DNA from: a virus
Length of the DNA: 31,656 nt
Direction: 5' to 3' (one strand)
IMG/VR virus record: IMGVR_UViG_3300042507_005026
Location: 1 to 31,656 of that record
Shown here: piece after piece, positions 3,246 through 28,647 of the stretch
Numbering within the stretch: position 1 is the stretch's first letter
How the letters are laid out: each line of letters opens with the position of its first letter
The notes under the pieces: model-generated
The model's input: only the letters and a program-made list of their open reading frames with translations
The model's database searches: none
What the model was told of the DNA's origin: nothing
Made by a program: the position numbers and the translations under genes

Positions 3246-3330
3246 CTTTTTCTGCGTGGTCGCCTTGCGCGTCTAACCGCCCTGCGGGTATAGGGTTTGC
3301 ACGGTGCCCGTGCGCCGTAGTCAGCAGCAA
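3243..3330 (+). promoter_or_regulatory. Cassette promoter P1 (TTGCGC + dyad + GTCAGCAG)
   Basis: TAACTTTTTCT at 3243-3253 is followed 11 bp later by TTGCGC (3265-3270). The dyad is TAACCG (3274-3279), 5 bp, CGGGTA (3285-3290), one mismatch from the consensus CGGTTA. TATAGG at 3289-3294 sits 18 bp after TTGCGC and is the best canonical -10 among the seven copies. GTCAGCAG is at 3320, 29 bp after the dyad instead of the usual 10. It drives the gene at 3350. Confidence 0.7.
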
Positions 3331-4501: not shown

Positions 4502-4558
4502 CTCTCGCTTCTGCTTGCGCGTCTAACGGCTGCGCGGTTAGTGGAGACACGTCAGCAG
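4493..4558 (+). promoter_or_regulatory. Cassette promoter P2
   Basis: TAACTTTTTCT (4493-4503) is 11 bp upstream of TTGCGC (4515-4520), exactly as in P1. The dyad is TAACGG (4524-4529), 5 bp, CGGTTA (4535-4540). GTCAGCAG starts at 4551, 10 bp after the dyad. It precedes the MoxR ATPase gene. Confidence 0.75.
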
Positions 4559-4597: not shown

Positions 4598-5740
4598 ATG
4601 ACCACCGCCGCTCTCGACCTCGCCACCGCCCGCGCGCAGCTCTCCACCCTCCGCACCCAGATGAAGGGCGCGTTCGTCGCCCGCGACGCCGAGATTGACG
4701 GGCTGCTGCTCGCGCTGCTGGCCCGCACGCACGTGCTCCTGCTCGGGCCTCCGGGCACCGCCAAGTCGCTGGTGACGCAGGTGTTCGCGGGCGCTCTCGG
4801 CGGCGACTACTTCCAGCGCCTGCTGACCGCGTTCACCGCGCCCGAGGAGCTGTTCGGCCCGTACGACCTCGCCGCGCTGGACGCGGGCCGCTACGAGCGC
4901 GCCGTGCAGGGCTACCTCCCGACCGCCACGGTCGCGTTCTGCGACGAGGTGTTCAAGGCGAACAGCGCCATCCTCAACAGCCTGCTCACGGTGCTCAACG
5001 AGCGCCAGTTCGACAACGGCACCGCACGCCTGCAGCTGCCGCTTGAGCTGTGCGTCGGCGCGAGCAACGAGTATCCGGAGGACGCCAGCTTGGAGGCGCT
5101 CTACGACCGCTTCACGCTGCGCTACTGGACCCAGTACGTGCCGACCCGCGCCGGGCGGCTCGCGCTGCTGACCGCCGCCGACCCGGCGAAGGCGGTGACC
5201 GCGAAGCTCGCGCCCGAGGCGGTGCAGGCGCTGCAGCAGGCGGTGCGCGACGTCGTGGTGCCGCAGGCGGTGCTGGAGCTGCTGTGCGACGTGGCCGACA
5301 AGCTGGCCAAGGACAACGGCATCACCGTGAGCGACCGCCGCCTGCGCGGGATGGTGCGGCTCCTGCAGGCGAGCGCCGCGCTGGACGGGCGCGACACGGC
5401 GACCGCCCGCGACCTGCTGGTGCTGGCCGACAGCGTGTGGCACCGCCACGAGCAGCGCCCTGCGGTGCTCGCCACGGTGATGGCCGTCGCCGCCCCGCAG
5501 CTCGCCGCTGCCACGAAGCTCGCCGACAGCGCCCGCGAGGTGTACGACGCGGTCAAGGACGTGCAGGGCGACGGCGCGCGCGCCCTGCAGCGCATCAAGG
5601 CTATCGAAGCCGAGCTGGCCGCCCTCGGGCTGGACGACGGCGACGTGGCCGCCTGCCACGCGCAGGTGACCGAGCTGCGGAAGGGGCTGGCCCGTCGGTT
5701 CATGGCCGCGAGCGGGCTGGGCGTCGGCCTCGCCGGGTAG
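4598..5740 (+). CDS. MoxR-type AAA+ ATPase
   Basis: The 380-aa protein shows a Walker A motif (GPPGTAKS, residues 50-57), Walker B (VAFCDE, 112-117), sensor-1 Asn in GASNEYP (N157) and the YDRF arginine (R171), followed by a helical lid. This is the MoxR/RavA/CbbQ class, which forms rings and usually works with a VWA partner to remodel or activate a target protein or insert a metal. The VWA protein is encoded next (5871). The ATG at 4598, with AGGAG 10 bp upstream, was chosen. A GTG at 4541 extends the frame but lies inside promoter P2. The 5' leader is very like that of the gene at 13061. The target in this phage is unknown. Confidence 0.9.
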   Translation: MTTAALDLATARAQLSTLRTQMKGAFVARDAEIDGLLLALLARTHVLLLGPPGTAKSLVTQVFAGALGGDYFQRLLTAFTAPEELFGPYDLAALDAGRYERAVQGYLPTATVAFCDEVFKANSAILNSLLTVLNERQFDNGTARLQLPLELCVGASNEYPEDASLEALYDRFTLRYWTQYVPTRAGRLALLTAADPAKAVTAKLAPEAVQALQQAVRDVVVPQAVLELLCDVADKLAKDNGITVSDRRLRGMVRLLQASAALDGRDTATARDLLVLADSVWHRHEQRPAVLATVMAVAAPQLAAATKLADSAREVYDAVKDVQGDGARALQRIKAIEAELAALGLDDGDVAACHAQVTELRKGLARRFMAASGLGVGLAG

Positions 5741-5760
5741 CCGCTCGGCGGTGCGCCGCC

Positions 5761-5801
5761 GCGCGCCTGCGCCAGTCGGTGCGGGCGCGCGTGCTTTTTT
5801 T
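5761..5801 (+). terminator. Intrinsic terminator after MoxR gene
   Basis: A 13-bp stem (5761-5773 with 5778-5790, two G-U pairs in RNA) with a 4-nt loop is followed by GTGC and seven T (5795-5801). The T run merges into the upstream box of promoter P3. Confidence 0.8.
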
Positions 5802-5862
5802 CTCACGGCGACCTTGCGCGAGTAACCGTGGCGCGGTTACCGGGTAACCGTCAGCAGCAAGG
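5795..5862 (+). promoter_or_regulatory. Cassette promoter P3, with extra palindrome
   Basis: A T run ending in TCT (to 5803) is 10 bp before TTGCGC (5814-5819). The dyad is TAACCG (5823-5828), 5 bp, CGGTTA (5834-5839). A second, overlapping 15-bp perfect palindrome GGTTACC-G-GGTAACC (5835-5849) adds another half-site. GTCAGCAG starts at 5850, and the AAGGAG of the VWA gene follows at once. Confidence 0.75.
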
Positions 5863-5870
5863 AGCATCCG

Positions 5871-7340
5871 ATGAGCGCAGCCTACACCACCGCCCGCCAC
5901 ACCGACGCCACCCGCGCCGTTTCGCGCTGGGCCGACTACCTGTTCACCACCCGCGAGGCCGCGAGCACCGCGCTGCGCGGCGCGCGCTACGAGCTGGGCA
6001 GCGCGTACCGCGCGCACGCCAAGAGCGCCGACGCCGCCGAGGCGCGCCGCATGGACGCGCTGGCCACCGCGACCGCGCGCGAGGTCTTCGCGGGCCTGTA
6101 CGACGCCGAGGAAGCCGCCGCGCTGGAGAAGCCCGCGCCCGACACCGAGCTGGTCGCCCGCGTCCACGCGCAGCTGCAGGGGCTGCCCGAGTACGCGCAG
6201 CTGCAGGCGCAGGTGGCGGGCGACCCCGACCTCGCCGCGCTGGCTGCCGCCCAGCTGCTGCGCGGCGTTGCGGGCGCGCTCCCGCAGGTCGCGGAGCAGG
6301 AGCGCCAGCAGGCCCAGCAGTCCGCGCAGGGGCGCGCCCAGCGCGGCCCGGCTGCCGACCCCGACGGCGCGATGCGCCGCGCCCTGCGCGCGGCCTGTGG
6401 CGATGCCGCGCAGGCCGCCGCCGAGGCCGCTGACGGGATGGAGGGTCTGGCTCCCGGCCTCGGCGGCACGCCCGCCCAGCACGAGCAGGACGGCACCGCG
6501 CGCATGGCGCTGGCCGAGCGCGTGAGCAGCGATGCCCGCCTGCGCCGCGTGATGAAGCTGGCTGGCCGCCTGCGCCGCCTCGCCAGCGACGGGCGCAAGG
6601 TGCGCGACGAGCTGGGCGCGGACACGCTCGTGGGCACCACCATCGGCGGCGACCTGCCGCGCGCCCTGCCCACCGAGCTGGGCCTGCTGCGCCACCCGCG
6701 CCTGCGCCGCGTGCAGCTCGCCAAGCTCGCTGACCGTCGGCTCCAGCAGTACCACGTCGTCGGGCAGGTTCCGAAGGGTCGCGGCCCGGTGGTCGTGCTG
6801 CTGGACGAGAGCGGTTCGATGGAGGGCGAGCGCAACCTGTGGGCTGCTGCGGTGGCGCTCGCCTGTCTCGGCACCGCCGCCCGCGAGCGCCGCGCCTGCA
6901 CGGTCATCGGGTTCAACGGCGCGGTGCGCTACGTCGTGCGGCTGGACGCGCAGGGGCGCGCGTGGCGGCACGAGCCGCGCAACGTGGCGCAGTCCACGGC
7001 GATGGGCGGCTGCGCCGAGGTGGCCCTGCACGTGGCCAGCAGCCGCCCCGATGGCGGCACCCAGTTCGCGCCGCCGCTGCTGGCCGCGCTGGAGCTGGAG
7101 GACGGCGTGACCCGCGAGCGCGCCGACCTCGTGCTGGTGACCGACGGCCACGCCGAGGCACCCACCAGCGTGATGGAGCGCCTGCAGGCCGCCAAGCGCG
7201 ACGGGCTGCGCGTGTTCGGTCTGACGGTCGGAGGCGGGAGCCTCGGTCACGCGGTGCAGCAGCTCGCCGACCACTGCGTGGACCTCGACGCCGCCAGCGG
7301 GCGCGACGACGGCAAGGAGGTGGCGGGTGCCATCCCGTAG
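5871..7340 (+). CDS. VWA-domain (MIDAS) protein, partner of MoxR ATPase
   Basis: The 489-aa protein has a helical, Ala/Gln-rich N-terminal two thirds and a C-terminal von Willebrand A domain from about residue 300. All MIDAS elements are present: D312-x-S314-x-S316 (DESGSM), T397 in GGTQF and D425 in VTDGHA. These bind a divalent metal and form a protein-docking site. The combination of MoxR ATPase and VWA protein with a long helical N-terminus resembles CobS/CobT-like pairs. AAGGAG lies 6 bp before the ATG. The next small gene overlaps its end by 14 bp, so the two are translationally coupled. Substrate and role in infection are unknown. Confidence 0.88.
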   Translation: MSAAYTTARHTDATRAVSRWADYLFTTREAASTALRGARYELGSAYRAHAKSADAAEARRMDALATATAREVFAGLYDAEEAAALEKPAPDTELVARVHAQLQGLPEYAQLQAQVAGDPDLAALAAAQLLRGVAGALPQVAEQERQQAQQSAQGRAQRGPAADPDGAMRRALRAACGDAAQAAAEAADGMEGLAPGLGGTPAQHEQDGTARMALAERVSSDARLRRVMKLAGRLRRLASDGRKVRDELGADTLVGTTIGGDLPRALPTELGLLRHPRLRRVQLAKLADRRLQQYHVVGQVPKGRGPVVVLLDESGSMEGERNLWAAAVALACLGTAARERRACTVIGFNGAVRYVVRLDAQGRAWRHEPRNVAQSTAMGGCAEVALHVASSRPDGGTQFAPPLLAALELEDGVTRERADLVLVTDGHAEAPTSVMERLQAAKRDGLRVFGLTVGGGSLGHAVQQLADHCVDLDAASGRDDGKEVAGAIP

Positions 7341-7746: not shown

Positions 7747-8378
7747 CCGACACCGACGCAACCGCCGCGCTGTACGCCGCACAGGGCTACGTTCGCTGGG
7801 CGACCGTACCCCAACCGCCCCCAGCGCCCCCATCGCGCCCTGTGGGCCGCTACGGGCCGGGAAACGCGCACCCGGTGCAGGTACGCGGACTGCGCTGGCA
7901 CACGGACGCCCGAGGCGGGCTGGTGGAGGTGCACCGCCGCAGCTGGCACGGCGACCTGCGGCCCGACGACGCAGCCCCCACACCCGGCGAGGTCGCGCAG
8001 GTGTACGTCAGCACCACCGCCGAGGGCGTGGTCAAGGGCTGGCACCTGCACGCACGGCAGAGCGACCGCTTCACGGTGCTGCGTGGGTCCATCGTGCTGG
8101 GCCTGTACGACCTGCTCGCGCATCAGAACGCCATCCGTCTGGGCGAGGCACTGCCGCCAGTCCACGAGCTGGTGCTGCACGCCGAGAGGAACCCGTCACA
8201 GGTGGTCGTGCCGCCCGGCTGGGCACACGGTTGGATGGCACTGCCCGGCTACGGAGAGGCGCACGTGCTCAACGCGGTGTCGCACGAGTACGACGGCACC
8301 GACGAGTGGCGCAGGGACGCGCACGCTGGTCCGTGCGCTGGCGTTCATCACGAGTGGCGTCGTAGCCGCGACGGGTAG
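7743..8378 (+). CDS. RmlC-like cupin (dTDP-4-dehydrorhamnose 3,5-epimerase-related)
   Basis: The 211-aa protein has the RmlC pattern: a KGWHLHARQSDRF segment (98-110, H101 and H103) followed by a glycine turn and strand (LRGSIVLGLYDL), then VVVPPGWAHGWMAL (154-167), which matches the PxGFAHG-type motif of sugar epimerases. A loop with SHEYDGTDEWR follows. RmlC inverts C3 and C5 of the 4-keto sugar, and relatives act as 4-keto-sugar isomerases. The ATG overlaps the preceding stop (ATGA), so it is translated with the small gene before it. The RmlD-like reductase at 2538 could supply the next step. The substrate cannot be read from sequence. Confidence 0.75.
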   Translation: MTDTDATAALYAAQGYVRWATVPQPPPAPPSRPVGRYGPGNAHPVQVRGLRWHTDARGGLVEVHRRSWHGDLRPDDAAPTPGEVAQVYVSTTAEGVVKGWHLHARQSDRFTVLRGSIVLGLYDLLAHQNAIRLGEALPPVHELVLHAERNPSQVVVPPGWAHGWMALPGYGEAHVLNAVSHEYDGTDEWRRDAHAGPCAGVHHEWRRSRDG

Positions 8379-8379
8379 C

Positions 8380-8427
8380 TTGCGCGCTACCCTGCACACG
8401 GTTACGCAGTAACAGTCAGCAGCAGCG
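8380..8427 (+). promoter_or_regulatory. Cassette promoter P4 (divergent left half-site)
   Basis: TTGCGC lies at 8380-8385 and CGGTTA at 8399-8404. The left half-site is poor (TACCCT at 8388). GTCAGCAG starts at 8415, 10 bp after CGGTTA. A second small palindrome GTTAC-GCA-GTAAC covers 8401-8413. It drives the sigma-like gene, so the regulon may include its own sigma-like factor. Confidence 0.6.
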
Positions 8428-8449: not shown

Positions 8450-8932
8450 ATGACCGAGCAGAACGACAACGCCGCCGCGTGGGGCTGGGTGCTCCAGCAC
8501 GCGCAGGTGGTACGGTGTGCCGCGTGGCGCATGGCCAGCGGCACAGGGTTGGACGCGGACGACCTGCACAGCAGCCTGCTGGTGCGCCTCGTGGAGCGGT
8601 GGCGCAGCTACGACGCGAGCACCAGCGCCCCGAGCACGTGGGTCTGGTGGCAGGCGCGCGCGGTGCGTTCGGCGATGATCGACCACCGCCGCAGGCGGCT
8701 GGACGAGGTGGAGCTGACCGACGCCGCACACCCGGTCGCACACCCGGTCGCCGAGGCGCGCGTGATGGTGCGCGAGGCCGAGCGCATGGCCGAGCCGGGC
8801 GAGTGGCAGGCCGCTGTGGCCTACGCGGATGGACTAGTGGGTGACGAGCTGGGCGAGGCGTGCGGCTGTGCTCCGTTCAGCGCCCGACGACGTGTGGCGC
8901 GCCTGCGAGCGCGCATCGAGGAGGCAGCATGA
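8450..8932 (+). CDS. Sigma-70/ECF-like RNA polymerase sigma factor
   Basis: The 160-aa protein has a recognisable sigma region 2 at about residues 17-83. An acidic DADDLHSSLLVRLVERW segment is followed by a WVWWQARAVRSAMIDHRRRR stretch, which corresponds to the core-binding and -10-recognition helices ending in the basic run typical of ECF sigmas. The C-terminal part (126-158) could form a region-4-like HTH but is weak. GAGGAGGA is 4-5 bp before the ATG. It is the first gene of a coupled trio (HTH protein, RecU-like) and lies behind a copy of the cassette promoter. It may direct host polymerase to those promoters, which is an inference. A degenerate sigma-like DNA-binding protein is the alternative. 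Confidence 0.7.
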   Translation: MTEQNDNAAAWGWVLQHAQVVRCAAWRMASGTGLDADDLHSSLLVRLVERWRSYDASTSAPSTWVWWQARAVRSAMIDHRRRRLDEVELTDAAHPVAHPVAEARVMVREAERMAEPGEWQAAVAYADGLVGDELGEACGCAPFSARRRVARLRARIEEAA

Positions 8933-9249
8933 CGGTGGCGCTGGACGACGAGGTTCACGAGGCACAGCTGCTGCGAGAGCTGCAGGCTGGACACGAGCTG
9001 CCGCTGGTGGAGGTCTTCGCCGAGCTGGCCGCCGAGTGGCACCGCCGCAATCCCGGCACCCGGTCGAAAGACCTCGCCGCGCTGCTGGGCGTGCGTCCGC
9101 AGCTGTGCTCGCAGTGGAAAACGGGCACCGACGGGCGCAAGCCACCGTGGAGCGTGATCATCCTGCTGTGCCAGCTGTGCCGCAGGCAGGTGGTGGTGCG
9201 CCCCGATGGCGTCCACCTCGCGCAGCTGCGCCGCCAGCGCACCGCGTGA
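8929..9249 (+). CDS. HTH DNA-binding protein (Cro/XRE-like)
   Basis: The 106-aa protein starts at ATG 8929 inside the sigma gene's stop (ATGA), after GAGGAGG. Residues 45-65 (RSKDLAALLGVRPQLCSQWK) have the helix-turn-helix pattern of Cro/C1-type regulators: a short helix, a turn at LGV, then a recognition helix with SQW. The rest is helical and basic at the end. A small HTH protein coupled to a sigma-like factor suggests a regulator. The dyad TAACCG-N5-CGGTTA in the cassette promoters is a possible operator, but nothing in the sequence proves that pairing. Confidence 0.7.
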   Translation: MTVALDDEVHEAQLLRELQAGHELPLVEVFAELAAEWHRRNPGTRSKDLAALLGVRPQLCSQWKTGTDGRKPPWSVIILLCQLCRRQVVVRPDGVHLAQLRRQRTA

Positions 9250-9773
9250 CCCGCAGCGCCAGCCACGCCAACCGAGGCCGCGCGTGGGAGCAGCTACTGG
9301 AGCTGCTTCACGCGCGGTACGAGGCGCGCGGGCTGGCAGTGGTACTGCGCACGCCGCCACCGATGCGCATCCTGCGCTCCCTGCCGGGTGGACAGTTCGT
9401 GGCGGTGTACGCCACCGAGGGGCCACCCGACTACGTGTTGCTCACGGCTGGCCTTGCTGTGGCCGCAGAGGCGAAGGATTGCGTGGCCGACCGTTGGCAG
9501 CTCGCCAAGTTGCACCCGCACCAAGCACGCCGCCTGTCCGCGTGGGAAGCACAGGGCGGGCTGGGCGTAGTGCTGCTGCGCCACCAGACGAGCGGCACGC
9601 AGTGGGTGCTGCCGTGGAGCAACCTGCGCCCGGTGTGGGAGCGGTGGCACGATGCCGCCGAGGCTGGCCGCGAGCTGCCACGGGGCAGCGCCAGCGTCAG
9701 CCTGCCGCAGCTGCACCAGCTCGGCGTCCAGTTCTGCCCGGTGGACGGGCACCTGCCGCGCATCACGCGCTGA
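9246..9773 (+). CDS. recU: RecU-like Holliday junction resolvase
   Basis: The 175-aa protein starts at GTG 9246 overlapping the previous stop (GTGA). It follows the RecU layout: NRGRAWE at residues 9-15 (E15), GPPDY with D62, and the E75-A-K77 pair of the PD-(D/E)XK core, then HPHQARRLSAWEAQGG as in the RecU family. RecU cuts four-way junctions during recombination and, in phages, resolves replication intermediates. Length is close to the family norm. It is the last gene of the sigma/HTH trio, and its 3' end overlaps the convergent minus-strand primase-like gene by 11 bp. Fold and metal ligands are convincing; exact subfamily is less certain. Confidence 0.8.
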   Translation: MTRSASHANRGRAWEQLLELLHARYEARGLAVVLRTPPPMRILRSLPGGQFVAVYATEGPPDYVLLTAGLAVAAEAKDCVADRWQLAKLHPHQARRLSAWEAQGGLGVVLLRHQTSGTQWVLPWSNLRPVWERWHDAAEAGRELPRGSASVSLPQLHQLGVQFCPVDGHLPRITR

Positions 9774-11422: not shown

Positions 11423-12907
11423 ATGGCCACCACCCCGAACGCGCACGTCGCGTCCACGCTCGCGCTCCACGTGCCCCAGCTGCCGCTGCGGTTCGCGCAA
11501 GCTGTGCAGCAGCTACTGACGGTGCCCAACCCCGAGCGTGAGCAGATGGCCCGCGCTGGCCTGTCGGGCGGTCACCTGCCCGCCACGCTCCAGCTGTGGC
11601 AGCAGGAGGGCGAATGGCTCCACGTGCCGCGCGGTGCCGTGAAGCGGGTCAAGCAGCAGGCCGCCCTACATGACACGGAGCTGCGCTGGAGCACTGCGGT
11701 AGTCAGCCGAGCCACGCAGCGCGTGCCGCTCGCCGACCTCGCGGTGGAGCTGCGCCAGTACCAGCGCGAGGCGGTGGACGCGATGCTGTTCGGCGTGCAG
11801 GGCCACGTGGTCGCACCCTGCGGTGCGGGCAAGACGGTCATCGCCAGCAGCGCACTGGCAGCCTGTGGCGAGCCGGGACTGGTGCTCGTGCACACGCACG
11901 ACCTGCTGGAGCAGTGGGTGCGCCTGCTGCGGGGCTGGGGCTACCGCGTGCGCGTGGTGGCTGGCGGGCAGGCCCGGCTGGGGCCGCTCGGCGTGTTCAA
12001 CGGGCAGCCCGAGCTGTGTGTGGCGATGGTGCAGACGCTCACACGCGCTGGCGCTGCCGCCGACCCGCTGCTCGCGAGCGCGGGCGCGGTGGTGCTGGAC
12101 GAGTGCCACCACGCGCCAGCGAGCACGTTCCGCGAGCTGCTGAACCGGGTGCCTGCCCGGCACCGCTGGGGCGTCACGGCCACACCCGAGCGCGGGGATG
12201 GGCTGTCGTCCATGTTGGAGCTGGCGCTGGGCGAGCAGCTGTACGAGATCACGACACAGCAGTTGCTCGCTGGCGGCTGGCTCATGCAGCCCATCATCCT
12301 ACCCGTGTTCAGCGCGGCGCAGGTGGACCTGCAGCGGTGTACCAGCGCGAACGGGCAGCTCGTGATTGCTCGCGCCGTGCAGCAGCTGGTGGACGACCCC
12401 GAGCGGCACCAGCTGCTGCTACAGCTTGCCAGCGTGGCGGCACAGGCAGGCCGCACGACGTTGCTGCTCGTGCCTCGCGTGGAGCAGGCGCAACGCCTCG
12501 CGCAGCACCTGCGCGCCCGAGGCGTGCTCGCCTCCGACGCTACCAGCGCCACGGGCAAGACGCAGCGCATCGCCCAGCTGCGCCAGCTGCGCGCCCGGCA
12601 ACTGCAGGTGCTGGTCGCCACGCAGCTTGCCGACGAGGGGCTGGACGTACCCGTGCTGGACTGCCTCGTGGTGGCGAGTACCGGGCGGGCGGCAGGCCGC
12701 GCCGTGCAGCGCATCGGGCGCGTGATGCGAACCGCCGAGGGCAAGGGGCAGCCTGTCGTCGTGGACGTCGTGGACCCGACACCGTTTCGGGGCCAGTGGC
12801 GAGCGCGAGAGACAGCGTACCGTGACGCGCTGGGCCTGCAGGTGCCGTCGCCGACGCCACGGGCACAGGCGGTGGACGCGCTGCGCCGGGCGCTGAACGG
12901 CAGCTGA
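11423..12907 (+). CDS. SF2 DNA helicase (XPB/UvsW-like)
   Basis: The 494-aa protein has a complete superfamily 2 helicase core: an LRQYQREAV Q-like motif, Walker A (GAGKT, 134-138), DECH box (226-229), TATPE motif III (252-256), an ATQLADEGLDVP motif V and QRIGRVMR motif VI (429-436). The order and the DECH box fit the XPB/RecG-UvsW side of SF2, which remodels forks and recombination intermediates. A 100-residue N-terminal part of unknown role precedes it. ATG 11423 was chosen; the frame stays open upstream but through the divergent promoter region. No Shine-Dalgarno site is visible, so translation may be weak or leaderless. Confidence 0.88.
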   Translation: MATTPNAHVASTLALHVPQLPLRFAQAVQQLLTVPNPEREQMARAGLSGGHLPATLQLWQQEGEWLHVPRGAVKRVKQQAALHDTELRWSTAVVSRATQRVPLADLAVELRQYQREAVDAMLFGVQGHVVAPCGAGKTVIASSALAACGEPGLVLVHTHDLLEQWVRLLRGWGYRVRVVAGGQARLGPLGVFNGQPELCVAMVQTLTRAGAAADPLLASAGAVVLDECHHAPASTFRELLNRVPARHRWGVTATPERGDGLSSMLELALGEQLYEITTQQLLAGGWLMQPIILPVFSAAQVDLQRCTSANGQLVIARAVQQLVDDPERHQLLLQLASVAAQAGRTTLLLVPRVEQAQRLAQHLRARGVLASDATSATGKTQRIAQLRQLRARQLQVLVATQLADEGLDVPVLDCLVVASTGRAAGRAVQRIGRVMRTAEGKGQPVVVDVVDPTPFRGQWRARETAYRDALGLQVPSPTPRAQAVDALRRALNGS

Positions 12908-12972: not shown

Positions 12973-13020
12973 TCTGGACGCTAACCGCCCGACGGTTAGT
13001 AAGGGGTGTCAGCAGCAAGG
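12973..13020 (+). promoter_or_regulatory. Cassette promoter P5 (no clear -35)
   Basis: A perfect dyad TAACCG (12982-12987), 5 bp, CGGTTA (12993-12998) is followed 9 bp later by GTCAGCAG (from 13008). Where TTGCGC stands in other copies the sequence is TCTGGA, and there is an A run instead of a T run upstream. It precedes the gene at 13061. Confidence 0.6.
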
Positions 13021-19858: not shown

Positions 19859-19925
19859 ACTTTCTGCGGCTGGCACCTTGCCGCTAACCGCGCTCCGGTT
19901 ACTACAGCCCGGTCAGCAGCAAGGC
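19856..19925 (+). promoter_or_regulatory. Cassette promoter P6
   Basis: GTAGACTTTCT (19855-19865) lies upstream of TTGCCG (19878-19883). A perfect dyad TAACCG (19885-19890), 5 bp, CGGTTA (19896-19901) follows. GTCAGCAG starts at 19912, 10 bp after the dyad. The gap from TTG to the dyad is 2 bp shorter than in the other copies. It drives the small membrane gene at 19946. Confidence 0.7.
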
Positions 19926-20283: not shown

Positions 20284-20317
20284 AAGGGGCAGCCGAGGAA
20301 AGTTCTGGCTGCCCCTT
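20284..20317 (+). other. Perfect hairpin overlapping the -35 of P7
   Basis: An 11-bp perfect stem AAGGGGCAGCC/GGCTGCCCCTT encloses a 12-nt loop. Its right arm runs into the TTGCGC of promoter P7 (20316). Without a T run it is a weak terminator at best; an operator or insulator between the two transcripts is possible. Confidence 0.5.
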
Positions 20318-20360
20318 GCGCGTCTAACCGCCTCTCGGTTAGCGTAGCGGTGTCAGCAGG
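20301..20360 (+). promoter_or_regulatory. Cassette promoter P7
   Basis: TTGCGC (20316-20321), then a perfect dyad TAACCG (20325-20330), 5 bp, CGGTTA (20336-20341), then GTCAGCAG from 20352, 10 bp after the dyad. Spacing matches P2, P3 and P6. It drives the serine recombinase. Confidence 0.75.
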
Positions 20361-23783: not shown

Positions 23784-24500
23784 GTGCCCACCGCTGAACT
23801 GAACCTCTCCACCGTGGCACTGGCCGACCTACGCCCCGACCCGGCCAACCCTCGCACGCACGACGCGCGCAACCTCGCCGCCATCGCCGCAAGCCTCCGC
23901 GAGCACGGACAGGTGGAGCCACTGCTGGTACAGCAGTCCACGATGATGGTCATCGGCGGCAACGGGCGCGCCGAGGCCATGCGCTCGCTGGGATGGAAGC
24001 AGGCCCGCGTGGCGCTGCTCGACGTCAGCGACACCGAGGCCCGCAAGCTCTCCATCGCGCTGAACCGCACGGGCGAGCTGGCTGGCTGGGACGAGGCAGT
24101 GCTGGCTCGCCACCTGTCCGAGCTGTCCGAGCTGGACGGCGCGTTCGATGTGGAGGGTCTGGGCTTCACGGGTGCTGAACTGGACGCGCTGGTGGCGGCC
24201 TACGTCGCGGTGGAGCCGACGCCGCCGCCCGTAGCCCCGCAGCCGACGGCACAGGGAACCGCCAGCGGTGTGACCGCTGGTGCGGGTGCTGGTGTGTCCA
24301 TCGGAGGGGCGTTGCCGCCCGGCACCGCGCCTGCGCCCATGCCGACCAGCGCGGTCAAGGTCGTCCAGCTGTTCCTCAACGACGAAACCATGGACCCGTT
24401 TCAGATGGCTGTCCGCAAGCTGGCAGAGCAGTACGGAACGGACAATATCACCGACACCGTGCTGCGCGCGGTGCTCACCGAGGCTGGCGAATGGCGCTGA
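23784..24500 (+). CDS. ParB/Srx-like domain protein
   Basis: The 238-aa protein starts at GTG 23784, 6 bp after GGAG. Residues 8-115 form a ParB-N/sulfiredoxin-like domain: VALADLRPDPANPRTHD, a helix with SLREHGQVEPLLVQ and the GGNGRAEAM motif (58-66), then LNRTGELAGWDEAVLARHLSEL. In phages such domains are found in DNA-modification and nuclease proteins as well as partition proteins. After a Pro/Gly/Ala linker (143-195) comes a short helical C-terminal domain. There is no helix-turn-helix typical of full ParB. queE overlaps its end by 10 bp, which ties it to the deazaguanine genes; a DNA-targeting or NTP-binding role there is inferred. Confidence 0.75.
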   Translation: MPTAELNLSTVALADLRPDPANPRTHDARNLAAIAASLREHGQVEPLLVQQSTMMVIGGNGRAEAMRSLGWKQARVALLDVSDTEARKLSIALNRTGELAGWDEAVLARHLSELSELDGAFDVEGLGFTGAELDALVAAYVAVEPTPPPVAPQPTAQGTASGVTAGAGAGVSIGGALPPGTAPAPMPTSAVKVVQLFLNDETMDPFQMAVRKLAEQYGTDNITDTVLRAVLTEAGEWR

Positions 24501-25153
24501 ACGTCCGCGAGGTGTTCGCCACCATGCAAGGCGAGGGCAGCATGGCGGGTGCGCCTGCTGTGTTCGTGCGGCTGTCGGGATGCAACCTGTGGAGCGGGCT
24601 GGCCCACCTGCGCCACGCAGGCACCGGAGCCTGTGCCGAGTGGTGTGACACCGACTTCGCAAAGGGTACACGCTACGAGCCGGGCGAGGTCGCGGACACC
24701 GTGCTGCGACTGTGCGACGGTTGGGCACGTCCATTCGTGGTCGTGTCCGGAGGCGAACCATGCCTCCAGCTCCGCACAGCAGGCGGCGAGGTGCTGGTGC
24801 GCTTGCTCCAGCAGGCAGGCGTGGCCGTGGCCGTAGAAACCAACGGGACAGTCGAGGCCGATGTGCTTGCCGACTTGCAGCACGTGACGGTCAGCCCCAA
24901 GGCACTACGCGCACCCGGCGAGGACGCACTGGCGCACGTTCGCGTTCGCACTGGCACCGACCTCAAAGTCGTTGCCCCGCAGTGGGGGCATGACGAGCTG
25001 GACCGCATGAACGAGTGGGCGTTCACCCACCGTTACGTCCAGCCGCTGGACACCGGAACTGGTCCCGGCGCGGTGCAGCCCGCGCTGGCGCTGGCGGCGC
25101 GCCTTGGCTGGCGCGTGTCGGCGCAGGTTCACAAGCTGCTGGAGCTACCATGA
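24491..25153 (+). CDS. queE: QueE, 7-carboxy-7-deazaguanine synthase (radical SAM)
   Basis: The 220-aa protein turns 6-carboxytetrahydropterin into 7-carboxy-7-deazaguanine, the ring-contracting step of preQ0 synthesis. Family features seen: FATMQGEGSMAGAPAVFVRLSGCNLW at the start (shown in part), CDTDF after the cluster, GGEP at 86-89 and ETNG at 115-118. The cluster cysteines are C31, C48 and C52, a CX16CX3C spacing. The X3 between the last two is unusual, since a CX2C end is the common form. The ATG lies inside the ParB-like gene, with GAGG upstream, and its stop overlaps folE (ATGA). Identity is clear; activity with this spacing is the only doubt. Confidence 0.92.
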   Translation: MALNVREVFATMQGEGSMAGAPAVFVRLSGCNLWSGLAHLRHAGTGACAEWCDTDFAKGTRYEPGEVADTVLRLCDGWARPFVVVSGGEPCLQLRTAGGEVLVRLLQQAGVAVAVETNGTVEADVLADLQHVTVSPKALRAPGEDALAHVRVRTGTDLKVVAPQWGHDELDRMNEWAFTHRYVQPLDTGTGPGAVQPALALAARLGWRVSAQVHKLLELP

Positions 25154-25746
25154 CAACGGATAAGGCAGCCGCCGCCGAGGCGGTGCGGGCGCTCCTCGCG
25201 GCGCTTGGCGAGGACACGGAGCGCGAGGGGCTACACGGCACGCCCGCACGGGTGGCCAAGGCGTGGCTTGAAATGCTCGCCGGGATGCACCTGCAGCCCG
25301 CCGATGTGCTGCGTACCAGTACGGGCGGCGCTGGGTTCTCCGACGTCGGTGGGTTCGACCAGATGGTCGTGCTGTCCGACATCCCGTTCCACAGCGTGTG
25401 CGAACACCACATGCTGCCGTTCAGCGGGTTCGCGGACGTTGGCTACCTGCCGGGCGACAGCGGGTTGGTGGTGGGCGTGAGCAAGCTCGCGCGCCTCGTG
25501 GACCTGTACGCGCGCCGCCTGCAGGTGCAGGAGCGCATGACGCAGCAGGTAGCACAGGCGCTCCACGACCACCTACAGGCGCGCGGCGTCGGTGTGCGGG
25601 TGCGTGGCGTCCACCACTGCATGAGCTGCCGTGGCGTCCGCAAGTCGGGCACGATGGCGACCGAGGTTCTGTTAGGCGCGTTCCGTGACCATGCGGTACG
25701 CGCCGAGTTCTGGCAGCTGTGTGAGCCGCTGCCGAGGGGGGCATGA
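25150..25746 (+). CDS. folE: FolE, GTP cyclohydrolase I
   Basis: The 198-aa protein makes dihydroneopterin triphosphate from GTP, the first step of the pathway. HSVCEHHMLPF (81-91) supplies zinc ligands C84 and H87, and HHCMSCRGV (155-163) supplies the third Cys and nearby catalytic residues. GLHGTPARVAKAW and SKLARLVDLYARRLQVQERMT are family signatures (the second shown in part). Length is normal for type IA enzymes. Start and stop both overlap neighbours (ATGA with queE, ATGA with queD), so the four que genes are made in step. Confidence 0.95.
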   Translation: MTTDKAAAAEAVRALLAALGEDTEREGLHGTPARVAKAWLEMLAGMHLQPADVLRTSTGGAGFSDVGGFDQMVVLSDIPFHSVCEHHMLPFSGFADVGYLPGDSGLVVGVSKLARLVDLYARRLQVQERMTQQVAQALHDHLQARGVGVRVRGVHHCMSCRGVRKSGTMATEVLLGAFRDHAVRAEFWQLCEPLPRGA

Positions 25747-26177
25747 TGGACACGACCGCGACCCGCATCTTCGGGATTGACGTTGGGCACCGGGTGATGC
25801 GCCACGAGAGCAAGTGCGCGCACGTGCACGGCCACCGCTACGGCATCGAGGTGACCTGCGCGGCACCCGCGTTGGATACCGTGGGGCGTGTGATTGACTT
25901 TGGCGTGGTCAAGGAGGTGGTCGGCAGCTGGCTGGACGACAACCTCGACCACGGCTACGCGCACCACCCCGACGACCCGGTGGGCGCGTACCTGCTGGCA
26001 CAGGGACAGCGCACGTTCGCCATGCCCGCCCAGTACGGTGAGCCAACAGCCGAGAACATCGCCCGGCTGGTTGGACACACCGCAGGCGAGCTGCTGGCTC
26101 CACACGGCATCACGGTCACGCACGTTCGCGTGTACGAAACGCCCAACTGCTGGGCAGACTGGCGTAAGGAGGTCTGA
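25743..26177 (+). CDS. queD: QueD, 6-carboxytetrahydropterin synthase
   Basis: The 144-aa protein converts dihydroneopterin triphosphate to 6-carboxytetrahydropterin. Zinc ligands H16, H29 and H31 and catalytic C25 are seen in GHRVMRHESKCAHVHGH; IDFG (51-54), the D69-H70 pair in LDHGY, E104 in PTAEN and E132 in YETPN complete the active site. Start is ATG 25743, or ATG 25746, both overlapping the folE stop, with GAGGGG upstream. Its stop overlaps queC (TGATG). Confidence 0.94.
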   Translation: MMDTTATRIFGIDVGHRVMRHESKCAHVHGHRYGIEVTCAAPALDTVGRVIDFGVVKEVVGSWLDDNLDHGYAHHPDDPVGAYLLAQGQRTFAMPAQYGEPTAENIARLVGHTAGELLAPHGITVTHVRVYETPNCWADWRKEV

Positions 26178-26890
26178 TGTCACAGCTGAACGGAAAGACG
26201 GTGGTGCTGCTGCTCTCGGGTGGGCAGGACAGCACGACCTGCCTGTTCTGGGCGCTCGCCAACGGAGCCAGCAAGGTCCACGCGCTGTCGGTGTGGTACG
26301 GGCAACGGCATGACGCGGAGCTGCGTGCTGCGTCGGCGGTGTTGGCCGTCGCCCGCGAGCACTACCCCGAGGCCGAGCTGCACCACGAGCAACTGGCCAT
26401 TGGCAACGTGCTGTCCAGCACCAGCCCGCTGGTGAGCAGCGCGCCGCTGGGCCAGTACGCCAGCGCCGAGGAACTGCCGGGCGGCGTGGAGCCGACGTTC
26501 GTGCCGGGTCGCAATCTCCTGTTCCTCACGCTGGCAGCGAACCGCGCAGCGGCGGTGCGCGCCGACGCGCTCGTGACAGGCGTGTGCGAGGAGGACTTCG
26601 GAGGGTACTACGACTGCAGGCGCGCGTTCGTGGACGCGACCGAGCGTGCTGTGGCGCAGGGGTTCGTTGGGTCAGACGAGTGGCTGCCCATTCTGACGCC
26701 GCTGATGAAGCTGGACAAGGCGGCCAGCGTGCGCTTGGCAGTGGAGCTGCCCGGCTGCATGGACGCGCTGGCGGTGAGCCACACCTGCTACGCAGGCGAG
26801 AACCCGCCCTGCGGCAAGTGTCACGCCTGCCACCTGCGGCAGCGTGGCTTCGCGCAGGCAGGCGTGGCCGACCCTCTCGTTGGGCGGTGA
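26177..26890 (+). CDS. queC: QueC, 7-cyano-7-deazaguanine (preQ0) synthase
   Basis: The 237-aa protein makes preQ0 from 7-carboxy-7-deazaguanine with ATP and ammonia. It has the PP-loop SGGQDS (14-19) and the C-terminal zinc site C204, C212, C215, C218 (CYAGENPPCGKCHAC). AAGGAGG stands 4 bp before the ATG, the strongest ribosome site in the que run. No QueF is present, so the expected end product is preQ0, with the QueC intermediate ADG as the alternative. The first DpdA-like gene begins 3 bp after its stop. Confidence 0.95.
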   Translation: MSQLNGKTVVLLLSGGQDSTTCLFWALANGASKVHALSVWYGQRHDAELRAASAVLAVAREHYPEAELHHEQLAIGNVLSSTSPLVSSAPLGQYASAEELPGGVEPTFVPGRNLLFLTLAANRAAAVRADALVTGVCEEDFGGYYDCRRAFVDATERAVAQGFVGSDEWLPILTPLMKLDKAASVRLAVELPGCMDALAVSHTCYAGENPPCGKCHACHLRQRGFAQAGVADPLVGR

Positions 26891-26893
26891 CCG

Positions 26894-27754
26894 ATGTTCA
26901 AGGCAGCAACGCTGGTGTCGTACCACGGGATGCGCGAGCAAGGGTTCGATGCTTGGTGGAGGCTGCAGGGCGCGTACCCCGACATAGAGGTGGTGCTGGA
27001 CAGTGGAGCGTTCAGCGCCGCCAACACGGGCGTGCCCATCGGCGTGCTGGAGTACGGCAGATTCGTGCGCCAGTACGGCGGTCGGTTCAAGTGGTGCGCC
27101 AACCTCGACGTGATTGGCGACCCGCAGGCCAGCTACAGACAGTGGCGGGCGCTCCAAGACCTGTCCGGAGGCCAGCTTGTGCCTGTCCTCCACTACGGTT
27201 CTGACCACCGTTGGATTGAACGCTACGCCAGCGACGGCGCTCCGCGCATGGCGTTTGGCGGCCTCGTGCCCCACATGGCCAAGCTGGCGCACGCCCGGCC
27301 CGACTGCCCTGTGACCAAGTGGGTGAGTGGCGCGTGGGAGGTTGCCAAGCAGGCTGGGTTGGTCGTCCACGGGTTCGGCGTGGCCAGTCCACGCATCATC
27401 GCCGCCTACCCGTGGGAGAGCTGCGACAGCAGCTCGGCGCACCACTACGCGCGCCGACGACAGAACTGGATACTCGACAGCAACGGCAAGCGCGTGCGGC
27501 TGGACAGCCAAACGGGCGGCCTGTCCGCTGACGAACTGAACATGATGGACAGGTTCGAGGTTCAGTACGTGGAGGGAGTTCACGGCAAGTACGGGATGGC
27601 GCGCGGCAAGCGGCTGACCTCGGTGGCTACGTCCATGCTCCAGTCGGTGGAGCTGGTCGGCTACCCAAGCGGGTTCGTGATGATGTTCGCGCTGCCCAAC
27701 GCGGCTGAACGGCACGTACTGTTCGACGTGAGCCGGGCTTGGAACGCCCGATGA
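26894..27754 (+). CDS. dpdA: DpdA-like DNA 7-deazaguanine transglycosylase, copy A
   Basis: The 286-aa protein has the tRNA-guanine-transglycosylase-type TIM barrel pattern of phage DpdA enzymes, which exchange guanine in DNA for a 7-deazaguanine base. LDSGAF (35-40, D36) matches the general-acid Asp motif, LDVIGD is at 71-76, and HGFGVASP (159-166) followed by YPWESCDSS carries D178, which aligns with the nucleophile Asp. No CXCXXC zinc motif is seen, unlike tRNA TGT. The start is 3 bp after queC with only a weak ribosome site, suggesting coupled translation. A paralogue follows with ATGA overlap. Family assignment rests on motif order and on the que genes beside it. Confidence 0.85.
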   Translation: MFKAATLVSYHGMREQGFDAWWRLQGAYPDIEVVLDSGAFSAANTGVPIGVLEYGRFVRQYGGRFKWCANLDVIGDPQASYRQWRALQDLSGGQLVPVLHYGSDHRWIERYASDGAPRMAFGGLVPHMAKLAHARPDCPVTKWVSGAWEVAKQAGLVVHGFGVASPRIIAAYPWESCDSSSAHHYARRRQNWILDSNGKRVRLDSQTGGLSADELNMMDRFEVQYVEGVHGKYGMARGKRLTSVATSMLQSVELVGYPSGFVMMFALPNAAERHVLFDVSRAWNAR

Positions 27755-28647
27755 ACGTGGGATGGCTGACGAGTTACTGGCACGTTCGTACCGACCCAGT
27801 GGACTGGCAGAAGACGCTGGAGCTGACGCGCCACGGCGTGAGTGTCGTTGTGGACAGCGGAGCGTTCACAGCCAAGTCGCTGGGTACACCCATCAGCCTG
27901 CTGGCCTACCAGCGGTGGCTCCAGCCCCGCCTGCGCTCGGTGAACGGTTGGGCGGCATCGCTCGACGTCATTGGTGACCACAGCGGCACCATGGCTAACT
28001 ACCGGGCCATGGCGTCTGCGGGCTGTGTTGGTGTGGTTCCCACCGTTCACTTCGGAGCGCCAGCCGACTACGTGGACGTCTACGCCGACCTCGGGGCGCA
28101 ACGCATCGCGGTGGGCGGCATCGCTGGGATGATGGTGCGCGGTCGCCCGTGCCTTGACGACAGCCAAGCTGGACAGCTCACACGCTGGCTGACCGCTGTT
28201 CACGGTAGGTTGGAGGCCCGTGGCATCAAGTCACATGGGTTCGGCGTGAACGCCCCGCAGTGGGCGAAGGCGTACCCGTGGGATTCGGTGGACGGCACCA
28301 GCTTCGCGTCGGGCGCGAGGTATCGCAACCTGCCCATCTACCGCAACGGAAAGATGACATGGCGGCAGCTGCGCGACGTGACCGACGAGGAGGCGACCTA
28401 CCTCGCAAGCATTGGTGGCGACGTGTCTCGGATGAACGACGCTTTCGTGACTGTGAAGGGGCAGGGCCAGCGACAGTGGCGCACGCTGATTGAGCTTGGG
28501 ATGGTCGCGGTGGTCCAATCCCTGCTGGAGCAAGCGCCGCACATTCGCACCCTCTACGTCAGCGAGTGGAGCATGACCGACCTCGTGCGCGGCATCATCC
28601 TCGACTGGAGCGACAACGGCTACCCGTGGCTGCGTGCGCGCGGGTAG
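27751..28647 (+). CDS. dpdA: DpdA-like DNA 7-deazaguanine transglycosylase, copy B
   Basis: The 298-aa protein is a diverged paralogue of copy A. VDSGAF (34-39, D35), LDVIGD (71-76), VHFG around H100 and SHGFGVNAP with YPWDSVD (D181) line up with D36, LDVIGD, H100 and D178 of copy A. Both putative catalytic Asp are kept, so it is not an obviously dead copy. The C-terminal third differs most, with a longer helical part after residue 190. ATG 27751 overlaps the stop of copy A (ATGA), so the two are made at a fixed ratio, as expected for a heterodimer or for two enzymes with different sequence targets. Confidence 0.83.
   Translation: MNVGWLTSYWHVRTDPVDWQKTLELTRHGVSVVVDSGAFTAKSLGTPISLLAYQRWLQPRLRSVNGWAASLDVIGDHSGTMANYRAMASAGCVGVVPTVHFGAPADYVDVYADLGAQRIAVGGIAGMMVRGRPCLDDSQAGQLTRWLTAVHGRLEARGIKSHGFGVNAPQWAKAYPWDSVDGTSFASGARYRNLPIYRNGKMTWRQLRDVTDEEATYLASIGGDVSRMNDAFVTVKGQGQRQWRTLIELGMVAVVQSLLEQAPHIRTLYVSEWSMTDLVRGIILDWSDNGYPWLRARG

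Follow-up and report, generated by a model that had tools for sequence, protein, structure and literature searches.

In phages phiEco32 and 7-11 a phage-encoded sigma factor serves the structural genes through -10-type promoters, according to the parts of the published account available to us (PMC4331800), and the phiEco32 sigma factor, whose relatives are annotated as ECF, is reported in a second, partly available account to have been shown to bind E. coli polymerase (PMC7881722). The accessible portions of three further papers describe phage ECF promoters as having an extended -10 and no recognisable -35 (PMC5333181), a Corynebacterium ECF sigma consensus of GGAAC-N18-19-GTT together with sigE-cseE, an operon of sigma and anti-sigma (PMC10012870), and a need of ECF sigmas for a rigid spacer (PMC6411747). 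The ESAS of cluster K mycobacteriophages, as far as the available excerpts go, combines SigA-like hexamers spaced 17-18 with an inverted repeat and, downstream, a start-associated element, and is found in the non-structural half only (PMC3203893, PMC11373665).

The locus described here lies in a virus record of 31,656 bases (71.6% GC), analysed as a whole and called the window below. As in phiEco32 and 7-11, to the extent that the available parts of their descriptions allow comparison, there is a phage-encoded sigma factor (P0001), structural genes stand behind -10-type promoters and early genes are probably left to the host polymerase. It differs in that the late sequence is TGATGT or TAATGTATA there and GATACAGT here, in that the sigma gene is coupled here to a gene for a helix-turn-helix (HTH) protein (P0002), and in that the early promoters share a dyad; tblastn in the phage collection (E 1e-5) found no sequence relationship between P0001 and the phiEco32-group sigmas, although a distant one is possible. 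With SAS/ESAS the locus shares a repeated SigA-like promoter, an inverted repeat, a downstream element and placement in the non-structural half, again judged from the excerpts available. The sequences themselves differ from the repeated promoter cassettes of the window (the 13-bp SAS, GGGATAGGAGCCC, which belongs near start codons, gave 0 matches in the window at two or fewer mismatches), and those same excerpts mention no sigma partner for SAS/ESAS.

A conserved sigma–HTH operon

The features of the operon, all on the + strand, are as follows.

8450..8932, +: predicted ECF-type sigma factor P0001, 160 aa; region 2 at about residues 14-83 and region 4 HTH at about residues 116-159
8929..8932, +: ATGA stop/start overlap, read from the sequence
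8929..9249, +: XRE/Cro-like HTH protein P0002, 106 aa; translationally coupled; predicted recognition-helix region RPQLCSQWKTG
9246..9773, +: RecU-type Holliday-junction resolvase (Pfam RecU, E 3.3e-15), with which the conserved operon continues

The preliminary description had called the product of the first gene a region-2-bearing sigma-like protein. Region 2 is indeed matched by Pfam (Sigma70_r2, PF04542; E 2.9e-8, 33.8 bits against a cut-off of 24) and is the only region that Pfam lists, region 4 being absent at E up to 10, but the description has to be extended. A profile built from six P0001 relatives matched SigE over profile positions 11-156 (E 1.3e-5), a span that takes in regions 2 and 4, and when the AlphaFold model (of modest quality, pLDDT 70.8 and pTM 0.43) was compared using Foldseek the eight top matches were all ECF sigmas, at low TM-scores of 0.33-0.43 and, for one, an E-value below 0.001. 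As region 4 is thus matched by profile and by fold, P0001 is predicted to be a complete small ECF-type sigma factor; the combination of region 2, region 4, no region 1.1 or 3 and a short protein is that of the ECF group (group 4). The best sequence and fold matches are the actinobacterial factors SigE and SigH, which P0001 resembles in domain content, size and fold class and from which it differs in being a phage gene, in having no recognised anti-sigma and in having an XRE-like second gene. With P0001 as query, tblastn gave no match at E 1e-5 in 50,697 phage records and none in plasmids, and the sigma alignment found 78 pattern stretches and 0 relatives in the species-genome collection.

For P0002 the earlier label, Cro-like, holds less firmly. 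The match to Pfam HTH_3 is weak (E 0.034, which does not reach the cut-off), that to a PHROG regulator has E 0.016, and tblastn in the 50,697 phage records gave no match. The model (pLDDT 79.1) has an extra N-terminal helix and a C-terminal hairpin, and Foldseek returned no match at E 0.001, XRE proteins being found among other weak matches. P0002 is like the XRE controllers (P22 c2, Aca1, restriction C proteins) in being a small HTH protein, a possible autorepressor of promoter palindromes and a weak fold match, and is unlike them in having no significant sequence or fold match and in carrying the extra helix and hairpin. The pattern PQ..SQWK.G.D is kept in two relatives discussed below, G007 and G019, and in a three-sequence alignment the predicted recognition helix of P0002 and the region-4 helix of the sigma factor are among the best-conserved stretches. 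That the PQ..SQWK.G part is so well conserved even at 37.5% identity suggests that P0002 binds DNA.

The sigma and HTH genes are adjacent in nine records of 45.6% to 72% GC, a number that includes two pairs that are near-duplicates in the operon region (G001/G002 and G004/G005). Two scans of viral contigs, one with the sigma alignment and one with the HTH alignment, returned the identical 7 contigs. A scan with a capsid-like protein of the family gave 39 loci, five of them in records already in the set; 15 of the 39 were searched for sigma and HTH genes, and 11 records were read fully. One of the 15 searched, G019 (71 kb, 45.6% GC), is a more distant relative missed by the sigma and HTH scans in which both genes are again adjacent, in a gene order (F8-F9-F1-F14-F10-sigma-HTH-RecU) matching that of the window, with 38% identity to the nearest member for the sigma factor and 37.5% for the HTH protein. 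The ATGA overlap of the two genes, already noted in the preliminary description, is plainly present at 8929-8932 and recurs in 6 of 7 GC-rich relatives; G007 has a gap and G019 has TAATG. The sigma and HTH genes are therefore one conserved operon, found together wherever either was found. It should be noted that gene calls were made by script, so that starts may be off (that of F9 in G019 probably is), and that three records found by the cassette pattern (G009, G010 and G013; GC 64%, 44% and 42%) lack TTGC and were excluded on sight from gene calls and counts. No annotated phage proved nearly identical to any part of the first 20 kb of the window, a host search by terminase (of G002) and Sak4 gave matches all below 60% identity and spread over many hosts, and no description of such a sigma–HTH operon was seen among the papers listed by a literature search.

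Two promoter classes on different gene sets

Sites fitting TAACCG-N5-CGGTTA with three or fewer mismatches number 13 in the window against 3.65 expected (the largest count in 100 shuffles was 8), and four are exact. Seven copies belong to full cassettes, all on the + strand with an ATG 27 to 62 nt downstream. In the window GTCAGCAG occurs seven times on the + strand, once in each of these cassettes, and three times on the minus strand. The earlier count of seven cassettes, with the operon behind the fourth (P4), therefore stands.

3265..3290, +: cassette P1, TTGCGC followed by TAACCGCCCTGCGGGTA, before ORF 3350; GTCAGCAG at 3320-3327, 29 nt past the dyad
4515..4540, +: cassette P2, before the MoxR-type ATPase ORF 4598
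5814..5839, +: cassette P3, before the VWA-domain ORF 5871; followed by a third half-site, GTAACCG
8373..8392, +: inverted repeat GGGTAGC-TTGCGC-GCTACCC around the -35 of P4, including the stop codon of the upstream gene
8380..8404, +: cassette P4 (dyad 8388-8404), TTGCGC and TACCCTGCACACGGTTA, with a variant left half-site, before the sigma gene
8415..8422, +: GTCAGCAG element of P4, 10 nt past the dyad
12982..12998, +: cassette P5, before ORF 13061, without a TTG -35
19878..19901, +: cassette P6, before ORF 19946
20316..20341, +: cassette P7, before the serine recombinase ORF 20369

The left half-site of P4 had been taken as degenerate, and its dyad TACCCTGCACACGGTTA does carry two mismatches to TAACCG-N5-CGGTTA. 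The variant left half, TACCC, is nevertheless kept before the sigma gene in 7 of 8 GC-rich records (G000-G006; G007 differs), a conserved variant and not a product of decay. The inverted repeat around the -35, which overlaps TACCC, is present in G000, G001, G002, G003 and G006 and in a shorter form in G004 and G005; it is possibly a terminator or a second operator. The conservation of TACCC could be due to weak autorepression or to its overlap with a terminator-like hairpin. A recognisable cassette precedes the sigma gene in 7 of 8 GC-rich records (that of G004/G005 lacks TTGC), and none stands directly before it in G019.

The usual cassette reads TTGC, 3-5 bases, TAAC-N9-GTTA, 10 bases (9 in three) and GTCAGCA. 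When genes of eight records were classed as structural or non-structural by the place of their family in G002 and counted without selection, TAAC-N9-GTTA occurred in the 130 nt before 31 of 165 non-structural genes and before 0 of 148 structural genes. In G007, whose dyads have TACC or TACG as their left half, the strict dyad stands before 0 of 14 non-structural genes. Small genes lying on the opposite strand among structural genes have their own cassette, in the manner of early-expressed morons (G006 41150-41594, L069; G011 11533-11977, L078; G012 37698-38352, L080).

As regards GTCAGCAG, its reading as the +1 sequence was not retained, for if the -10 is placed at the last TA most cassettes have the element beginning near +1, but in the type before gene 3350 it lies 19 nt further downstream; an mRNA element is equally likely. 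The element does not appear to be tied to the sigma factor, since the promoters of G004, G005 and G007 mostly lack it (the G004/G005 sigma cassette being the exception) despite the presence of the sigma–HTH pair. The extra 19 nt between dyad and GTCAGCAG in the gene-3350 cassette (window 3291-3319) can form a 6-bp hairpin and are kept in G002, G006 and G012, with compensating base changes, judged by eye, in G012. Third half-sites stand just before GTCAGCAG in P3 (GTAACCG, within 5823-5856) and P4 (GTAACAG, within 8388-8421), and similar ones are present in the matching two cassettes of G003 and G006.

Of 37 distinct GC-rich cassettes, selected by a filter requiring GTCAGCA 8-12 nt past the dyad (which leaves out P1-type cassettes, those of G004/G005 except the sigma gene's, and those of G007), T is found at -7 in 10 (6 of 10 with a spacer of 16, 0 of 4 with 17, 3 of 21 with 18 and 1 of 2 without TTG), and as the primary sigma factor wants T at this position most would be poor host promoters. 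G019 has 11 dyads on both strands against 4.0 expected (the largest of 20 Markov shuffles was 7), and 6 with an in-register TANNNT, one of these on the minus strand, against 1.0 expected (largest 3). Six early dyads of G019, before non-structural genes, carry the in-register hexamers TATTAT, TATTAT, TATAAT, TATATT, TATAAC and TACACT, and TTG is at the expected place in 5 of 6; this set excludes the + strand dyads at 24534 and 40355, which have no in-register TANNNT, and three minus-strand dyads. Judged by sequence, the G019 cassettes thus look like host promoters of the form TTG-N16/17-TATTAT/TATAAT with a 17-bp dyad over the -10.

The structural genes have a second class of promoter, with a -10 of (T)GATACAGT type and no -35. 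In the same unselected count of eight records (T/C)GATANNNT preceded 29 of 148 structural genes and 2 of 165 non-structural ones. Seven structural families, picked after the motif had been noticed in them, give 34 rows, of which 31 have GATA at most 110 nt upstream, usually in the form G(T/C)GATA(C/G)NNT; T fills the eighth position (-7) in 24 of 26, and no column further upstream is -35-like. Among 162 non-structural genes GATA was found in 16 and GATANNNT in 4. The late motif varies less than the early one: over a range of 45% to 72% GC, GATACAGT is present before F37 in 13 of 14 rows (the F37 late promoter sequence is TGATACAGT) and TACAGT before F33 in 9 of 10, it being noted that these rows are partly near-identical (G017, G018 and G019; G015 and G016). 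TACAGT or GATA(C/G)NNT is found in 50 of 77 rows of seven families from 14 records (G002, G004, G006, G007, G011, G012 and G014-G021), in five of which the sigma gene was seen (G002, G004, G006, G007 and G019), the others being fragments; the motif rule therefore misses many late genes. The same count gave 1 of 2 in G023, 0 of 2 in G024 and 0 of 3 in G025. The last of these (92 kb), in which sigma region 2 was not matched, showed no late motif in the 3 late families that could be checked, and TACAGT was found in 0 of its 61 intergenic upstream regions against 23 of 268 in ten other records; as a control it is weak because it is distant, the capsid-like protein being only 41% identical. Only one gene in the window belongs to the structural set, and no late site there exceeds chance expectation.

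Within G019 the third position of the -10 is C in 7 of 7 late and 1 of 6 early sites (Fisher p 0.005, indicative only; the late sites were picked by eye, and for F33 AATACAGT was chosen and two GATAT sites were passed over). A further Fisher test, which set the cassettes against late sites selected for T at -7, was circular and was discarded.

Proposed assignment of proteins to promoters

We read the operon as the early-to-late switch of a tailed-phage family, and put this reading a little short of an even chance. The host polymerase would read the cassettes as early promoters, using a TTG-type -35, a spacer of 16-18 and a -10 that begins with the dyad's last TA, and early transcription would yield the sigma and HTH proteins alongside the replication genes. 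P0001 would then redirect the host core polymerase to the late structural-gene promoters with their (T)GATACAGT-type -10 and no -35, and P0002, produced in step by translational coupling, would bind the 17-bp TAAC-N9-G(T/G)TA over the early -10 and close the early promoters, its own less strongly as the left half of P4 is weak. The basis is a comparison of the records, in which neither gene was found without the other and two classes of promoter stand before different sets of genes, together with the class of fold to which the sigma factor belongs and the way in which the two -10 motifs respond to GC content.

The pairing of proteins with promoters, and the role of P0002 as a repressor, we infer. 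The assignment of P0001 to the late promoters and of the host polymerase to the cassettes is moderately supported, by elimination and by analogy with phiEco32 and 7-11. It departs from the preliminary description, in which the sigma-like factor activates the cassettes: the G019 cassettes look like host promoters, and the -35-less motif before the structural genes fits the sigma factor better. Of the switch proposed there, lying inside its own regulon, what survives is the conserved operon with a recognisable cassette ahead of it in most GC-rich records, and not the activation of the cassettes by the sigma factor. For closing the cassettes P0002 is the obvious candidate, given its co-occurrence with the sigma factor, its coupling to it and its conserved predicted recognition helix. 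Any protein that binds the dyad should repress, since the dyad covers the -10, and the earlier suggestion that the HTH protein represses the cassettes fits to this extent, P0002 being the presumed agent. The repressor role is weakened by G007, given the TACC/TACG left half and the want of a strict dyad before its 14 non-structural genes.

The scarcity of T at -7 and a spacing like that of GGAAC-N18-19-GTT at first favoured a reading in which the cassettes are ECF promoters served by P0001; the host-type -10 hexamers in register in G019 displaced it as the preferred one. In its full form P0001 would drive the cassettes, including its own, P0002 would repress them, and the late promoters would be host extended -10 promoters; we now regard this as unlikely. 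TTGC-N16-18-GTTA does resemble the Corynebacterium consensus, if only loosely, 27 of the 37 GC-rich cassettes are without T at -7, a cassette at the sigma gene in 7 of 8 GC-rich records is what self-regulated sigma genes have, and the late motif of the GC-rich genomes can also be read as the host extended -10, TGnTANNNT. The G019 cassettes, however, resemble host TTG-N16/17-TATTAT/TATAAT, and the late motif at F37 and F33 does not adapt to GC content. In addition, the occurrence of both 16 and 18 spacers would be unusual for ECF sigmas with their rigid spacer, the initial supply of sigma factor would require another promoter, and the sigma cassette of G004/G005 has no TTGC.

ECF operons often carry an anti-sigma at the second-gene position. 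P0001 could accordingly be the late sigma factor and P0002 its anti-sigma or co-activator, or P0002 could act elsewhere, with another protein binding the dyad. This has the sigE-cseE operon as a precedent and is consistent with the finding of the two genes only together and with the weak HTH detection (E 0.034, under the cut-off, and no fold match at E 0.001). The conserved predicted recognition helix points instead to DNA binding, and the dyad is 17 bp long, the usual length of Cro-type operators; we consider an anti-sigma or co-activator role improbable.

That the host polymerase reads both promoter classes, with P0001 and P0002 acting on host genes or other promoters, is more doubtful again, for although promoters of either class in the GC-rich genomes would pass as primary-sigma promoters, G019 holds two -10 classes of which only the early one is host-like, and the distant phage G025, in which no sigma region 2 was found, is without the late motif in its 3 checkable families.

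If the early-to-late switch is correct, the phage family has its own orthogonal sigma/promoter pair and a matching off-switch in about 800 bases. A wider version, which we advance more tentatively than the switch itself, is that a coupled phage ECF sigma and XRE repressor form a timing module in which one transcript would open the late and close the early promoters, the early promoters following the composition of the host while the sigma factor and the late -10 motif travel between hosts of about 45% and 72% GC. The switch, if correct, would also show how a phage can hold its late gene control independent of very different hosts, would offer a compact orthogonal expression module, and would make the temporal gene classes of uncultured phages predictable from sequence alone.

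Other genes of the window

A dTDP-sugar epimerase-like cupin gene (PF00908; 7743-8378) lies directly before the sigma gene, and its family is found in 7 of 11 records and also in G019 but is absent from the map of G007. Upstream of this, at 4598-7340, a MoxR-type ATPase (bpMoxR, E 3.6e-59) and a VWA-domain protein have a cassette each, and these families are found in 7 of 11 and 8 of 11 records respectively and also in G019. A run of genes at 24491-28647 is of the 7-deazaguanine (preQ0-type) synthesis kind, with Pfam matches to GTP cyclohydrolase I, a PTPS/QueD-like protein and QueC; a QueE-like protein (24491) and two DpdA-like transglycosylases (26894 and 27751) were recognised by eye only, with no Pfam match. 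By its gene content this run suggests that the phage DNA may be modified, and relatives of the 7-deazaguanine genes are also present in G002.
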